Below are positions 3,986 to 10,105 of a DNA stretch of 64,000 nt, piece after piece. The first letter of the stretch is position 1; each line of letters starts with the position of its first letter. The position numbers and the translations under genes were made by a program. This stretch comes from Acuticoccus mangrovi (GTDB lineage Bacteria; Pseudomonadota; Alphaproteobacteria; Rhizobiales; Amorphaceae), in the NCBI RefSeq assembly GCF_016411865.1, contig NZ_JAEKJA010000001.1:62001-126000 (forward strand), given 5' to 3'. Below the pieces are notes generated by a model. The model made no database searches. It was not told the origin of the DNA and saw only the letters and a list, made by a program, of their open reading frames with translations.

Positions 3986-5413
3986 TCAGCCGCCGGTCTG
4001 GTCGACGGTCTCGAGCTGCGAGGTGCGGGACTCGTCGCCCAACCTGATCTTGGCCGGGTCGTGCGCGGCCCTCGGCGCGCTCGGCTTGGCGAGATTGGTG
4101 AGCGGGACGATGGTGATCGCCGGTGACGTATAGGTCGGGCGCACCAGCGGGGCGTGGCTCGGCCGCGGCTCGTCGAGCCCGTAGCCGCGCGAGAAGAATT
4201 GCGGCCCGACCTCGCGCACCCTGAGCGGCGGGGTGCTCGCCGCCGCCACCGTCTCGATCGCTTCGCCGCCCTGCGGCAGCGGCTTGGCGCTCGGCAGATC
4301 GTCCAGCTTCGTGGTCTCGGAGGTCTCGAGCGCCGCCGTCTGCACCTCGTCGTCCTGCACGTCGTCGCGGGTGGAGGGCGGGGTGCGCAGCGTCAGCGAG
4401 GGAGCGAGCGGCTTGCCCGTCGCGTCGTAGACCGCCTTGTAGCGCACGTAGCCGCCGCTGGTGGTCGCCGCCCGCTCGGCGGCTTTGGAGGCGGCCATCT
4501 CGTCGGAGAGCCCCACGAAGCCGAGCGCCTTGTCGGCGGTCATGTCCGAGGCGATCACCGACTGGGTCTGGCAGCCGCAATCGGCGACGCGCTTCTTGCG
4601 GTAGAGGAAGGCGGTGGGTAGGCGCACATAGCGCTCGCTCGTCAGCGTGGAGCGCATCGTCTCGACCGGAGAATCGCGGTCGTGCGCATAGAGCGACACG
4701 TCGGCGCCGGGACAGCGGCCGACGCACATCGCGAGCTCTTCGTTGAAGTTCGAGCTATGCGACTGGCTGTTGATCGGGAAGTAGAAGCCGTCGCACAGGC
4801 GCACGCACACCGTGCGCGCGTTGCCGATGCGCAGCGCCCGGCCCGAGCCGTCGGAATCGTCGGACGGCGCGGCGCGGCGCAGCCGCTGCTCGTCGATGTC
4901 GACCCGTTCCACCGAACCCGACGACACCGCCTCCCGCGGATCGACGCTCACCGTCTCCACCTCGTTCGGGTGGCGGCGCCCGAAGATGTTGGAGAAGATG
5001 TTGAAGCCGCCGCGGCGCGCCTCGTCGTTGAGCTGATTGTCGGGACGGGTGCCGTGGATGATCACGCCGCTCGCGGGCGGGGCCACCGTCCGGCGGCGCT
5101 GCTGCTGACGGGATGCGGTGCGGGTGTCGTCGCACGCACGGGCGACCTGGCGCTGAAGCTCGCGAATCCGGCGCGGGTTGCCGCCGCCGGCGTTGCGCAT
5201 GCGCGCCTCGATGCCGGCGCACGCGCGATGGCGGCCCCATCCTGCGGACGCATTGCAACCATAAGCATCAGCCTGACGGCGCAGCCGCGCGAGTTCGGCT
5301 CCACCACCGCCCGAACGTGCCTGGGCCAGCTCGGCGCGCAACGCGCCACACGACTGCGCCCACGCGCTGCCGCCCATCAATCCGATGAAAATCAGAACAA
5401 TAAAAGCTCTCAT
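3986..5413 (-). CDS. DUF2865 domain-containing secreted protein
   Basis: The 475-residue protein starts with a clear Sec signal peptide (hydrophobic core at residues 4-17, cleavage after AWA). A Cys-rich DUF2865-like region follows in the middle and includes CVRLCDGFYFPI, CVGRCPGADVSLY and CGC. The C-terminal third is low-complexity. DUF2865 proteins are common in Hyphomicrobiales and have no known biochemical function; the paired cysteines suggest disulfides in the periplasm. It is monocistronic by spacing, convergent with gltX. Confidence 0.8.
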   Translation of the reverse strand: MRAFIVLIFIGLMGGSAWAQSCGALRAELAQARSGGGGAELARLRRQADAYGCNASAGWGRHRACAGIEARMRNAGGGNPRRIRELQRQVARACDDTRTASRQQQRRRTVAPPASGVIIHGTRPDNQLNDEARRGGFNIFSNIFGRRHPNEVETVSVDPREAVSSGSVERVDIDEQRLRRAAPSDDSDGSGRALRIGNARTVCVRLCDGFYFPINSQSHSSNFNEELAMCVGRCPGADVSLYAHDRDSPVETMRSTLTSERYVRLPTAFLYRKKRVADCGCQTQSVIASDMTADKALGFVGLSDEMAASKAAERAATTSGGYVRYKAVYDATGKPLAPSLTLRTPPSTRDDVQDDEVQTAALETSETTKLDDLPSAKPLPQGGEAIETVAAASTPPLRVREVGPQFFSRGYGLDEPRPSHAPLVRPTYTSPAITIVPLTNLAKPSAPRAAHDPAKIRLGDESRTSQLETVDQTGG

Positions 5414-5564: not shown

Positions 5565-7049
5565 CTAGTGTTTCGGCGTCACAGTGGCGATCATTGTCCG
5601 CACAGCCGCGAGGTCATCCACAAAATGCCGGTATTCGGCCCGCTTTGCCTCCGCGTCGGCGAGGCGCAGCAGTGCCGAAGGGTGGACGGTCAGAAATCCC
5701 GCTGAACCGTCGGCCCAGGTGAGCGGCGTGCCACGGTTGCGCCCGACGGCGAGGGGATGGCCGGCGAGCGTCCGCGCCGCGCTCGCCCCGAGCGCCACCG
5801 TGACCTTCGGCCGCACCAGCCGCCGCTCGTGGTCGAGCCAGACCCGGCAATGCTCGATCTCGCCGGCGTTGGGCGACTTGTGGATCCGCCGCTTGCCGCG
5901 CACCTCGAACTTGAAGTGCTTCACCGCGTTGGTGACGAAGGTGTCGGCCCGCTCGATGCCGGCGTCCTGGAGCGCGCGGTTCAATAGTCGTCCGGCGGGG
6001 CCCACGAAGGGCCGGCCGGCGAGATCCTCTTGATCGCCGGGCTGCTCGCCCACGAACATGATGGCGGCGCCCGGCCGCCCTTCGCCCATCACCACCTGGG
6101 TGGCGTCGCGATAGAGCGGGCAGCGCGTGCAGCCGGCCGCGGCCTCGGCGATATCGTCGAGCGAGTTGATGTTGGCGGCGAGGGAGCGGCTGCGGCTCTC
6201 GGCCTCCCGGCGGGCACGGGCGGGGCGGGTGGAGCGCGCCGGGGCGGTGGCGGGCGCGGCCATCATCGCGCCGGCTCGGGCCGTCGCTTGGCGGATCAGG
6301 GGCTGGATCAGGGCGGCCTCCGGCAGGTTCGTCCAGTAGCGTTTGGGCATCTCGGATGTCATCGCCCTGACGTTCAAACGCGCCGGATTGAAAATCGCTC
6401 CGAAATAAGTGCGCCAAAGATCCTCGTGGATGTCGCCGTCGGGGGCGATCTCGCGGCTCGCGCCGCCGGCCACGATGAGCGTGGCGCCGTCCCAGTGAGC
6501 GGAGCGCTCCGGCGTGACGATCGACCACCGCATCGCGGCGAAGCGCCCGACGAAGAAATCGGCCACGAGGTCGAGAACGTGGTGCTCCGGCTCGAACCAG
6601 GCGACGAAGCGCTCCGCACCGTCCCGATCGCGGGTGGTGCGGAAGCGAACGAACGCCTTCATCTTGTGGGCGCACCGACGCACGTTCTGGGCGAGCGTCG
6701 TCGCCCGGGCGACGTCGGCGTCGGTGGCGATCGACAGGAGCCTCGGCTCCTTCTGAAAGCGCTCCAGCAGGCGGTGGAGGAGGATGTAGCGGTCGGCGGC
6801 GCTGTGGCAGGCGACGAGCCGGGCAAGCTCCACGAAACGGCGCGGGGCGCGGGGCGCGTCGGTGGCGCTCGGCTCGGGCAGCGTCTGCGCCGGCACCATC
6901 GTCGCGAGGACGCCTTGAGCGTCGTCGCGGGTCGTCCACAGCACCCGATGGGAGGATATGCCGGCCGCGACGAGGCGCCGGGCCATCCGGCGGAAGGTCT
7001 CGAAGTCCGCCGGGTGCTCCAGGCGTACGATGTGCCCGTATCGGTTCAT
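5565..7049 (-). CDS. DUF4130 - UdgX-type uracil-DNA glycosylase fusion
   Basis: The N-terminal half (about 1-250) resembles the DUF4130/TIGR03915 domain. The C-terminal half (about 295-494) is a family-4-like uracil-DNA glycosylase with motif A GEQPGDQED at 334-342. The UdgX signature KRRIH lies at 386-390; in studied UdgX its histidine (here H390) forms a covalent link to the DNA after uracil removal. The Fe-S cysteines C307, C310 and C401 are visible. The fourth position reads NAVKH (H378) rather than Cys, so the histidine may be the fourth ligand (inference). The start codon overlaps the upstream radical SAM stop as ATGA, implying coupled translation. Confidence 0.9.
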   Translation of the reverse strand: MNRYGHIVRLEHPADFETFRRMARRLVAAGISSHRVLWTTRDDAQGVLATMVPAQTLPEPSATDAPRAPRRFVELARLVACHSAADRYILLHRLLERFQKEPRLLSIATDADVARATTLAQNVRRCAHKMKAFVRFRTTRDRDGAERFVAWFEPEHHVLDLVADFFVGRFAAMRWSIVTPERSAHWDGATLIVAGGASREIAPDGDIHEDLWRTYFGAIFNPARLNVRAMTSEMPKRYWTNLPEAALIQPLIRQATARAGAMMAAPATAPARSTRPARARREAESRSRSLAANINSLDDIAEAAAGCTRCPLYRDATQVVMGEGRPGAAIMFVGEQPGDQEDLAGRPFVGPAGRLLNRALQDAGIERADTFVTNAVKHFKFEVRGKRRIHKSPNAGEIEHCRVWLDHERRLVRPKVTVALGASAARTLAGHPLAVGRNRGTPLTWADGSAGFLTVHPSALLRLADAEAKRAEYRHFVDDLAAVRTMIATVTPKH

Positions 7050-8305
7050 GCCGCGAAGAGGTCGAGCTGACGGTGAGGCTTGCGGACGAGATGGGCGAGG
7101 CGCTCCCCGTCGAGCCCCTTCGGCGACCAGCCCTCCGCCGCCACGAAGGCGAGGGCGCGCCGGGCGGTGGGGGTGATCTTGGCGAGATCCTCCGGCCGCA
7201 GACGGTGGTGGCGCCGGGTCGACACGATCGCGTCCACCGCCTTCACCCCGAGGCCCGGCACCCGCAGCAGCCGCTCGCGCGGCGCCCGGTTGAGATCGAC
7301 GGGAAACTCCGCCCGGTGCCGCAGCGCCCAGGCGAGCTTGGGGTCGATGTCGAGGTCGAGCATGCCCTCGGCCGTCGCCGCCGCGGCGATGTCGCCGACC
7401 TCGAAGCCATAGAAGCGGGTGAGCCAGTCGGCCTGGTAGAGCCGATGCTCGCGCTGGAGCGGGGGCGGGGTGAGGGGTAGGGCCGTGGAGGCCGCGGGGA
7501 TCGGGCTGAAGGCGCTGTAGTAGACGCGCCGCAGCCGATAGGCGGTGTAGAGGGTGCGACTGCGCGACAGGATCGCCACGTCGCTCGCCCCGTCGGCGCC
7601 GACGATCATCTGCGTCGACTGCCCGGCGGGGGCGAACCGCGGCGCCGGCGCGGCGCGCGGCGGCAGGCGGCGCGGCCGCTCGGCCGCCGCGTCGATCGCC
7701 GTCCGCACCTCCGCCATCTGCCGCTTGATGGTGCCGGCGGACTTTTCCGGCGCGAGAGCGGCGAGGCCCGCATCGGTGGGCAGCTCGATGTTGATCGACA
7801 GCCTGTCGGCGTAGCGCCCGGCCGCCTCGATCAATTCGGGCGCGGCCTCGGGGATCGTCTTCAGATGGATGTAGCCGTGGAACTGATGACCCTCGCGCAG
7901 CGTGCGCGCCACCCGCACGAGTTGCTCCATGGTGTGATCGGCCGACCGCACGATCCCGGAGGACAGGAACAGTCCCTCGATATAGTTACGCCGATAGAAG
8001 GAGAGGGTGAGGCTCACCACCTCCTCCGGGGTGAAGGCCGCCCGCTCCACGCCGGACGACACGCGGTTCACGCAATACGCGCAATCGAACATGCAGGCGT
8101 TGGTGAGCAGCACCTTCAGCAGCGAGATGCAGCGCCCGTCGGGGGCATAGGCGTGGCAGATGCCCGACCCTTCGGTGGAGCCGATGCCACCCTTGCGGGC
8201 ATCTCGCGCCTGGGTTCCCGACGACGCGCAGGAGGCGTCATATTTCGCCGCATCGGCGAGGATCGCCAGCCTCTGCTGGAGGCTTTTCGCTCGACTGGTC
8301 GCCAC
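7046..8305 (-). CDS. putative DNA modification/repair radical SAM protein
   Basis: The 419-residue protein carries the radical SAM cluster motif C71-x3-C75-x2-C78 (CMFDCAYC). Near the C-terminus (about 335-375) is a helix-hairpin-helix DNA-binding motif (LLRVPGLGVKAVDAI). This matches the family annotated as DNA modification/repair radical SAM protein (TIGR03916), which is regularly paired with TIGR03915/UdgX proteins; the reaction is unknown. The start is GTG at 8305 with AGGAAGG a few bases upstream. It is the first gene of a two-gene operon with UdgX, and a LexA-like box lies 23 bases upstream of the start. Confidence 0.88.
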   Translation of the reverse strand: MATSRAKSLQQRLAILADAAKYDASCASSGTQARDARKGGIGSTEGSGICHAYAPDGRCISLLKVLLTNACMFDCAYCVNRVSSGVERAAFTPEEVVSLTLSFYRRNYIEGLFLSSGIVRSADHTMEQLVRVARTLREGHQFHGYIHLKTIPEAAPELIEAAGRYADRLSINIELPTDAGLAALAPEKSAGTIKRQMAEVRTAIDAAAERPRRLPPRAAPAPRFAPAGQSTQMIVGADGASDVAILSRSRTLYTAYRLRRVYYSAFSPIPAASTALPLTPPPLQREHRLYQADWLTRFYGFEVGDIAAAATAEGMLDLDIDPKLAWALRHRAEFPVDLNRAPRERLLRVPGLGVKAVDAIVSTRRHHRLRPEDLAKITPTARRALAFVAAEGWSPKGLDGERLAHLVRKPHRQLDLFAA

Positions 8306-8327
8306 GCCCTTCCTGCCTTAATCCAAT

Positions 8328-8342
8328 GTTTCGTCTTTGTTC
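8328..8342. promoter_or_regulatory. candidate LexA box, GTTT-N7-GTTC
   Basis: The alphaproteobacterial LexA consensus is GTTC-N7-GTTC. Here the sequence is GTTT, seven bases, GTTC, one mismatch in eight defined positions. It lies in the 208-base region between the divergent radical SAM gene and the betaine-type binding protein, close to the radical SAM start, where a repressor would block transcription. Confidence 0.55.
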
Positions 8343-8513
8343 CATATAGGGTCGCGCGGCGTCCCCGGTAAAGGGCCGCATTCGCGTGTTGACGTTCGGC
8401 CACAGCCGTTGTGCAAGGGGCGAGCTTGCAACCCTACGGGTCGGAAACGTGCTTCCAACGTTCCCCGCTCCGTGCTTGGGTCGTGCGCAAAGGTGAGGGG
8501 GAGGCGAATCACG

Positions 8514-9455
8514 ATGTCGGCCTGGGTCCGATCGATTCTGACCGGAGCGTGTGCCCTCGCGGCGGGTCCGGCGCTCGCGGCGACGGTGGTGGTGGGCGTG
8601 CCGGCCTGGCCGTCGGCGGAGGTGACCGCCAGCATCATCGGCAAGGTGCTCGAGGAGCACTACGGCGTCGCGGTGCGACTGCGCCCGATCGGCAGCATGG
8701 AGCTCCTCGGCGCCATCGACCGGGGCGAGGTGGACATCCACCCCGAGATCTGGCTCCCCAACCTGCAGAGCTTCGTCGACGATTACGCGAAGAGCGTGGT
8801 GGTCGCCGACTACGGCGTGACCGCCATGCAGGGGCTCTGCACCACGCGCGACACGGTCGAGGCCACCGGCATCAAGTCGGTCGGCGACCTCGCCAAGCCC
8901 GAGATGGCCGCCTATTTCGACACCGACGAGGACGGCAAGGGCGAGATGTGGATCGGTCCTGCGAGCTGGTCGTCGGCGCGGATCGAGCGGGTGCGGGCGA
9001 AGAGCTACGGCTATGCCGATACGATGATGCTCCTCAACATGCCCGAGGACATGGCGATGGCCTCGATCGATGCCGCGGCGGCGCTCGGTCAGCCCGTCGT
9101 CTTCTACTGCTATTCGCCGCACTACGTGTTCGCCCTGCACGACATCGTGCGGCTCGAGGAGCCGCCCCACGATCCGGCCACCTGGACCATCGTGCAGGCC
9201 GAGGACGACCCGGCCTGGCTCGCCCACTCGACGGCGGCGAGCGCTTGGGAGCCGTCGCACTTTCACATCGGCTACGCTCGCGCGCTCGCCGACGATCAGC
9301 CCGCCATCGTCGCCTTCCTCCAGCATATCGCCCTGACCGAAGACGACGCGGCGATGATGAGCTATGCGGTGCATGTGGAAGGTCGCGCGCCGGACGCGGT
9401 GGCCGACGCATGGCTTGCGGACAACAAGGAGCGGATTGAGGAGTGGGTGAAATGA
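8514..9455 (+). CDS. glycine betaine/proline-type ABC transporter substrate-binding protein (orphan)
   Basis: The 313-residue OpuAC/ProX-like protein has a Sec signal peptide (cleavage near ALA-A at residues 21-23). The beginning of the mature domain (VVVGVPAWPSAEVTASIIG) and EIWLPN are typical of the family. The ATG at 8514 is preferred because AGGTGAGGGGGAGG precedes it and because it begins the signal peptide; the frame is open further upstream. No permease or ATPase gene is adjacent. The stop overlaps the start of the L,D-transpeptidase gene as ATGA. Ligand cannot be read from sequence. Confidence 0.85.
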   Translation: MSAWVRSILTGACALAAGPALAATVVVGVPAWPSAEVTASIIGKVLEEHYGVAVRLRPIGSMELLGAIDRGEVDIHPEIWLPNLQSFVDDYAKSVVVADYGVTAMQGLCTTRDTVEATGIKSVGDLAKPEMAAYFDTDEDGKGEMWIGPASWSSARIERVRAKSYGYADTMMLLNMPEDMAMASIDAAAALGQPVVFYCYSPHYVFALHDIVRLEEPPHDPATWTIVQAEDDPAWLAHSTAASAWEPSHFHIGYARALADDQPAIVAFLQHIALTEDDAAMMSYAVHVEGRAPDAVADAWLADNKERIEEWVK

Positions 9456-10105
9456 AGCGGATGTTGTCGCGCGCGGCGGCGGCCCTCGGGGTTGTGGCAC
9501 TCAGTGCCGGGATCGCCCACGCCACGCAGATCTTCGATCCGTCGACCCGGGCCTGGGTGAGCTACGATCCCAAGCGTGCGATCGACTACTATCGCGCCCA
9601 CGGCGGCGTGCCGGCCGACTTCCGCCGCCAGGTGGTCAAGTTCCGCACCGCCGAGAAGCCGGGCACCATCATCATCGACGGCAACCGGCACTTCCTCTAC
9701 CTGGTGCTGCCGAACTTCCAGGCGATCCGCTACGGCATCGGCGTCGGCCGCGACGGCTTCGGCTGGGCCGGCATCGTGCGCGTGGGCCGCAAGGCCGAAT
9801 GGCCGACCTGGACGCCGCCGGCGGAGATGGTGGCGCGCGATCCGAACTCCGCAAAGTATGCCAACGGCATGCCCGGCGGCCCGGATAACCCGCTCGGTGC
9901 CCGCGCCTTCTATCTCTACGAGGGCAACCGCGACACGATCTACCGCATCCACGGCACCACTGAGCCGTGGTCGATCGGCCTCGACATCTCGTCGGGCTGC
10001 ATCCGCATGAACAACGACGATGTGATCGACCTCTTCAACCGGGTCGAGGTGGGCGCGAAGGTGATTGTCCTGATGCAGGGCGCCGCGCTCTACAAGGGCG
10101 TTTGA
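9452..10105 (+). CDS. L,D-transpeptidase, YkuD family
   Basis: The 217-residue exported protein has a Sec signal (cleavage near AHA) and a YkuD catalytic domain. The conserved His is in IHGTTEPWSIG, and the nucleophile motif is SSGCIRM. Such enzymes form 3-3 peptidoglycan cross-links or attach proteins to the wall in the periplasm. The ATG at 9452 forms an ATGA overlap with the preceding binding-protein gene, so the two are probably translated together. The last 24 coding bases plus two more are tandemly duplicated right after the stop. Confidence 0.9.
   Translation: MKRMLSRAAAALGVVALSAGIAHATQIFDPSTRAWVSYDPKRAIDYYRAHGGVPADFRRQVVKFRTAEKPGTIIIDGNRHFLYLVLPNFQAIRYGIGVGRDGFGWAGIVRVGRKAEWPTWTPPAEMVARDPNSAKYANGMPGGPDNPLGARAFYLYEGNRDTIYRIHGTTEPWSIGLDISSGCIRMNNDDVIDLFNRVEVGAKVIVLMQGAALYKGV

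Follow-up and report, generated by a model that had tools for sequence, protein, structure and literature searches.

Here we examine two genes encoding a radical S-adenosylmethionine (SAM) protein and a DUF4130-UdgX fusion protein, together with the sequence directly upstream, at positions 5565 to 8342 of a 64,000-nucleotide stretch of the Acuticoccus mangrovi genome (that whole stretch is the window). This kind of operon is already known, and its SOS control was reported earlier: according to the accessible part of PMC8565304, the two-gene uracil-DNA glycosylase (UDG) operon COG1573-COG4277 belongs to the SOS networks inferred in Bacteroidetes, and the same source, citing Verrucomicrobia and Caulobacter work, refers to earlier reports of its SOS regulation in Verrucomicrobia and Alphaproteobacteria. 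The window locus is like this "UDG base-excision" operon in having two genes, a UDG-family protein, and an SOS regulatory logic, but differs from the operon as described in three respects: DUF4130 is encoded in its second gene, the UdgX part is optional, and its operator is not a perfect match. The radical SAM gene of the window presumably corresponds to COG4277.

Three other described systems come close. The anatomy of the locus is identical to that of the linked NCBIfam set TIGR03916/TIGR03915/TIGR03914, to which the present analysis adds the operator and the way it changes from class to class. With the crystallized UdgX of Mycobacterium smegmatis (6AJO, 6AIL, 8IIE, and others), the window protein has in common GEQPG, KRRIH, the motif B region, three cysteines, and VTNAVKHFKF; that protein of about 210 amino acids, however, matches residues 296 to 482 only, whereas in the window UdgX is fused behind DUF4130 and follows a radical SAM gene. 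The imuA-imuB-dnaE2 cassette, finally, is SOS regulated in Caulobacter, as stated in the accessible parts of PMC1839093 and PMC6120978. DnaE2 directly follows UdgX at some loci, while in the genome of the window it sits on a different contig (C14). As far as they could be consulted, PMC1839093 gives four UDG-family genes in Caulobacter without an SOS tie, and PMC6120978 yielded no mention of uracil or radical SAM. The literature search found no paper joining UdgX with DnaE2, with the SOS response, or with a radical SAM protein and LexA, and DUF4130 and COG4277 each came up in a single paper. Neither the class-wise operator switch, the optional UdgX, nor the DnaE2 gene order was met in this search; since most subscription papers lay outside the search, this is weak evidence of novelty.

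As a whole, the locus is best explained as an SOS operon under LexA, a reading that we regard as very probable. In the window, both genes lie on the minus strand, the radical SAM gene at 7046..8305 (GTG start, 419 amino acids) and the fusion gene at 5565..7049 (494 amino acids), and they overlap, as had been predicted, in the sequence ATGA (7049 to 7046, minus strand), which joins the stop of the first gene to the start of the second. The candidate LexA operator, GAACAAAGACGAAAC (8328..8342, minus strand; GTTTCGTCTTTGTTC on the plus strand), ends 22 nucleotides before the radical SAM start codon in gene direction. It has the form GAAC-N7-AAAC, one mismatch from GAAC-N7-GAAC, the deviating base lying in the second half-site, and hence differs by one mismatch from GTTC-N7-GTTC in the promoter, the criterion for the LexA regulon. 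According to the accessible part of PMC8565304, GTTC-N7-GTTC is the LexA motif of Alphaproteobacteria.

The check named beforehand in the original prediction, with loss of the box from orthologous promoters as the refuting outcome, was conservation, and in three samples the box was found to be conserved. We tallied boxes between -100 and +20 of the radical SAM start in the best 80 of at least 584 confirmed relatives. The exact GAAC/GTTC-N7 box was present in 73/80 loci and a box with one mismatch in 4 more (L030, L064, L067, and L070), so that 77/80 carried it with at most one mismatch; the background rate was 16/8745 overlapping segments of the same size, and the reversed pattern occurred in 0/80. 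The three loci with no box (L051, L060, and L078) are presumably gammaproteobacterial, judging from their record titles. Among 12 relatives, 11 boxes were exact and 1 had one mismatch (background, 0/772). An even sample of 385 alphaproteobacterial genomes, 25 of which scored above the radical SAM cut-off, gave an exact box in 22/23 previously uncounted loci (L152 to L174) and the reversed pattern in 0/23. Of 398 genomes sampled evenly across the phylum, 84 scored above the cut-off, and here the exact box preceded all 42 of the previously uncounted alphaproteobacterial loci tallied.

The phylum sample also contained 29 non-alphaproteobacterial loci, all of which were tallied (L193, which coincides with L217, was excluded from the group counts). 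None of these 29 loci carried the exact alphaproteobacterial box, and two (L235 and L238) had it with one mismatch. Instead, an exact CTGT-N8-ACAG was found in 19/29, and one with a single mismatch in 5 more (L230 and L242 to L245, four of them from one genus), giving 24/29, while the reversed gamma pattern was found in 0/29. Conversely, CTGT-N8-ACAG was exact in 0/42 alphaproteobacterial loci and present with one mismatch in a single one (L201). The two Caballeronia loci examined, from 2 of 7 Caballeronia plasmid records, both carry the exact CTGT-N8-ACAG, the motif that we take LexA to recognize in gamma- and betaproteobacteria. The type of operator thus tracks the class-specific LexA motif, so that LexA control of the operon is well supported; a site that switches with the specificity of the repressor is hard to explain other than by LexA, and on these comparative grounds LexA control of the operon family appears close to certain. 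A LexA-type operator that changes with class further suggests selection to keep the pair under damage control, and the role of the pair should therefore be sought under DNA-damage conditions.

Several observations weigh against this conclusion. The reversed control pattern was found in 2/12 promoters of the relatives and in 1/42 alphaproteobacterial loci; one alphaproteobacterial genome (G257, L155) retains the gene pair without the box; and five of the 29 non-alphaproteobacterial loci (L217 to L221) have neither motif. None of the LexA motifs tried was matched exactly at L051, L060, or L078 or at the loci of Bacteroides and Gemmatirosa, except for the very short GGA-N5-TCC in L060. Moreover, loci within each sample are related, so that the counts are not independent, and species of the 80-locus set may recur in the class and phylum samples.

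The same motif is found at the promoters of lexA and recA in the genus. An exact box of the GAAC-N7-GAAC type precedes lexA in 8/8 and recA in the 7/7 found among the 8 genus genomes searched, the genome of the window (G000) included, indicating that this motif belongs to the resident LexA. The radical SAM gene itself is present in 5/7 congeners, and in four of them its box is exact: GAACAAAGATGGAAC (G002), GAACAAATTGTGAAC (G005), GAACAAATGATGAAC (G007), and GAACAAAGAATGAAC (G003). Measured from the cluster motif of the radical SAM protein, the box starts at -247 in the window and at -241 to -248 in these four. The fifth congener (G001) carries GAACAAATGCTGACC, with one mismatch and situated further upstream; in the promoter alignment, this genome was not aligned on its box. 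The SOS control proposed for the pair is thus supported by the conservation of the operator, its class switch, and the motif at lexA and recA.

How far this extends to the copy in the window has to be weighed separately. The original prediction of a GTTT-N7-GTTC upstream of the first start was correct as to its presence, but the box is imperfect and, taken alone, does not rise above chance. Judging the operator from the window alone was in fact dropped, one-mismatch boxes being as common there as in shuffled sequence: GTTY-N7-GTTY was found once against 2.03 expected, and GAAC-N7-GAAC with at most one mismatch 32 times against 36.9 expected, which counts against the site. Forty-base slots on one strand held such a sequence in 17/1599 cases (about 1%). 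Exact boxes as such are equally uninformative at genome scale, since there were 57 across the whole genome versus 53 for the reversed pattern (the loci from that scan, L082 to L111, were not used in later counts). The window box gains weight over chance because exact boxes of the congeners occupy nearly the same position. It has also lost one half-site base that 4/5 congeners retain, a further point against it, and the strength of the candidate operator is therefore unproven, one conserved base being gone. The family could accordingly be LexA controlled while the operator in the window has decayed, leaving the genes weakly regulated or constitutive. The half-site mismatch, in a genome whose own lexA and recA boxes are exact, and the likewise mismatched and displaced box of G001 speak for such decay; against it, the other seven half-site bases are retained at the corresponding position, and one-mismatch boxes lie near the start in L030, L064, L067, and L070 as well. 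We consider decay unlikely and LexA control of this genome's copy likely, as judged from these comparisons. A second one-mismatch box, GACCCTATATGGAAC (8339-8353, minus strand), shares one half-site with the first, which makes three half-sites with an 11-bp spacing.

The box had also been placed in the core of the promoter, which proved only roughly right. A consensus scan of positions 8250 to 8600 found no sigma-70-type promoter; by eye, however, a possible -35-like element, TTTACC (8367..8372, minus strand), precedes a possible -10-like element, TATATG (8343..8348, minus strand), by 18 nucleotides, and this TTTACC-N18-TATATG adjoins the box. If it is a promoter, it would set the box around the transcription start. 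In G002, G003, and G005, TTTAC likewise stands 18 nucleotides ahead of the hexamer abutting the box, again by eye. Across the 70 exact boxes of the 80-locus set that read in gene direction, ATA at positions 5 to 7 is nearly fixed (66, 67, and 65 of 70), a hexamer with at least 4/6 matches to TATAAT lies inside the box in 58/70, and the box ends 2 nucleotides before the first in-frame start codon in 34/70. From these hexamers and the 2-nucleotide gap, we infer that many alphaproteobacteria would have the -10 element covered by LexA and a transcript with hardly any leader.

The identity of the second gene bears on what the operon does. The pairing had been described as one of a radical SAM protein with DUF4130-UdgX; the two genes are indeed paired, but the constant partner proved to be DUF4130 and not UdgX, which is missing from 18/29 non-alphaproteobacterial loci (10 others are fused, and 1 was left open). 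In the 80-locus set, 66 second genes had the UdgX motif and 11 had DUF4130 without UdgX, while 1 was cut by a contig end and 2 gave no match. DUF4130 without UdgX was likewise found in 7/22 loci of the class sample, a count that includes L159, although it is cut off, and leaves out L174, which had no match. The further alphaproteobacterial loci comprised 36 fused genes and 1 DUF4130-only gene out of 42, with 3 left open and 2 without a match, and Bacteroides has a DUF4130-only pair (TIGR03915, 273 bits). All 11 DUF4130-only loci of the 80-locus set retain the box, 8 of them exactly and 3 with one mismatch. As DUF4130-only pairs with a box are widespread, the constant core bearing the LexA box consists of the radical SAM protein and DUF4130, and UdgX is an added module, an optional fused domain.

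This result bears on a possible function of the radical SAM enzyme as a dedicated release factor that undoes the UdgX-DNA crosslink. The tight pairing with UdgX under a shared promoter, seen in 36/42 and 66/80 loci, is what such a function would lead one to expect. The DUF4130-only pairs just described (11/80, 7/22, and 18/29 loci, and Bacteroides) do not fit it, however; of the seven genomes of the class sample with such a pair, five (G311, G257, G234, G221, and G330) had no UdgX scoring above the cut-off anywhere, at most 7 candidates having been scored per genome, and UdgX occurs beside DnaE2 in four genomes that lack the radical SAM family. Because DUF4130-only pairs are common, we lower the release role to an improbable one. 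With DUF4130 as the constant partner, the biochemical question shifts from crosslink reversal to the reaction of the radical SAM protein with DUF4130.

In some genomes, the operon is linked to the error-prone polymerase DnaE2. The dnaE2 gene directly follows UdgX in 8/80 loci (L026, L058, L062, L065, L069, L072, L075, and L076), counted within 3-kb flanks that were shorter for several loci, and at L018 a divergent piece of DnaE2 lies near the gene pair. In the class sample, G204 (L182) and G384 (L181) have the order radical SAM, DUF4130-UdgX, DnaE2, with an exact box ahead of the first gene in both (L156 and L154, respectively); the G204 DnaE2 scored 1375 bits against a cut-off of 939. At least 8 of 36 above-cut-off places with UdgX in this sample lie within 15 kb of DnaE2 (G384, G204, G043, G264, G428, G146, G206, and G074), for which the probability under a simple binomial, taking 30 kb per 4 Mb, is 3e-10. 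In the last four of these genomes, which are without the radical SAM family, the UdgX beside DnaE2 has no DUF4130 match (L184 to L187). DnaE2 also co-occurs with the pair: it was found at a best E value of 0 in 23/25 radical SAM genomes (the exceptions being G123 and G257) and above the cut-off in 172/385 genomes overall (Fisher test, 6e-7, two slightly different criteria being compared). Two points count against the overall SOS reading here: the co-occurrence figures allow neither for genome size nor for kinship, and the 9-kb dnaE2 region in the genome of the window (L180, G000 C14:86000-95000) has no exact GAAC/GTTC-N7 box, unlike lexA and recA. The linkage suggests damage-induced mutagenesis as a fitting assay.

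The sequences of the two proteins give some indication of the chemistry involved. The radical SAM protein scored 548.2 bits against TIGR03916, "putative DNA modification/repair radical SAM protein" (NCBIfam; curated cut-off, 343.5). Its radical SAM core (residues 66 to 195; 7721..8110, minus strand) matches PF04055 with an E value of 5e-8 and contains the cluster motif CX3CX2C (C71, C75, and C78), which is invariant in 48 aligned sequences. A helix-hairpin-helix region (residues 335 to 367; 7205..7303, minus strand) matches PF12836 at 20.1 bits, under the Pfam cut-off of 27, and has profile matches to ComEA-type and RuvA chains (E values of 0.01 to 0.12). In the fusion protein, the DUF4130 domain (TIGR03915, residues 12 to 245; 6315..7016, minus strand) scored 204.6 bits, above the cut-off, and the UdgX domain (TIGR03914, residues 247 to 483; 5601..6311, minus strand) 304.8 bits against a cut-off of 189.95. 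The UdgX part matches solved UdgX structures with E values of about 1e-50 and contains GEQPG (residues 334 to 338), KRRIH (386 to 390), and HPSALLR (456 to 462). These agree with the motifs that define the class, namely, motif A GEQPG, the R-loop KRRIH, and motif B HPS(S/A)(L/V)(L/V)R, as given in the accessible part of PMC10359453.

Together, these features suggest the following course of events. LexA bound at the promoter to an operator of the GAAC-N7-GAAC type would repress both genes, a step that is strongly supported for the family. On damaged DNA, RecA filaments would induce self-cleavage of LexA, and the radical SAM protein and DUF4130-UdgX would be made together. The helix-hairpin-helix region may bring the radical SAM enzyme to DNA, where, with DUF4130, it may attack a damaged or modified base by radical chemistry. 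Where UdgX is fused on, it would excise uracil and remain attached to the abasic site by a covalent bond from the KRRIH histidine; such trapping has been demonstrated for other UdgX proteins, and the window protein has the motif. UdgX would probably cap the abasic site during error-prone synthesis by DnaE2. We thus tentatively propose that the radical SAM protein and DUF4130 form a hitherto undescribed, LexA-controlled DNA-lesion-processing enzyme widespread in Pseudomonadota. Some members, chiefly in Alphaproteobacteria, would have acquired UdgX by fusion to cap the uracil or abasic product covalently, the whole set acting with DnaE2; the chemical role proposed here is possible but somewhat more doubtful still.

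Predicted structures bear on the kind of radical chemistry. The radical SAM model has a predicted local distance difference test (pLDDT) score of 83, with values below 50 for residues 27 to 49, which lie between two extra invariant cysteines. A structural search gave HydE as the best match (E value of 1e-7, template modeling score of about 0.4), and biotin synthase was among the best; no photoproduct lyase was among the matches listed, the best 50 of 83 at an E value of 0.001 or better. These matches argue against the radical SAM protein being a repair enzyme of the SplB-like, spore-photoproduct-lyase type. The accessible part of PMC3765255 does describe DUF4130 as a predicted mutagenesis-related enzyme tied to SplB-like radical SAM photolyases and uracil-DNA glycosylases, and in that of PMC3323433 splB is predicted to be under SOS control in alpha- and betaproteobacteria. 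On the other hand, SplB (COG1533) and the UDG pair COG1573-COG4277 are entered as separate SOS members in the part of PMC8565304 consulted, and we hold an SplB-like activity to be improbable.

Between residues 1 and 82 of the radical SAM protein (8060-8305), C26, C50, C59, and H51 are likewise invariant in the 48 sequences and could be ligands of an auxiliary iron-sulfur cluster. The DUF4130 model, with a mean pLDDT of 88, had no Foldseek match at an E value of 0.001 or better. VIA-align of this region (6309-7049) gave mainly chains of the RecJ/Cdc45/DHH type with Z scores of up to 7.6, below the caution level of Z 8, and Pfam and PDB profile searches lent no support to a RecJ/DHH kinship, so that the modeled likeness to this superfamily is a weak hint. 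The DUF4130 alignment used had 44 rows, L157 and L159 being left out.

Relatives of the radical SAM gene also occur on mobile replicons. They were found on 158/72,556 plasmid records, including 58 from Phaeobacter and 15 from Paracoccus, and 142 of these 158 records were typed as nonmobilizable. Matches on phage records were limited to 10/50,697, all below 60% identity, and 8 of these are labeled "Bacteriophage sp." and come from fecal samples. The plasmid records indicate that the gene moves between replicons, as would be expected if the operon served in defense against phages or mobile elements whose DNA contains uracil or modified bases. However, neither protein matched the PADLOC models at an E value of 0.01, and LexA-type boxes across classes, together with the DnaE2 linkage, suit repair better, so that a defense function seems very improbable beside an SOS repair operon.

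The genes flanking the pair are without an obvious link to repair. They encode a DUF2865 protein (3986-5413, minus strand), a glycine-betaine-type substrate-binding protein (8337-9455, plus strand), and an L,D-transpeptidase (9443-10105, plus strand).

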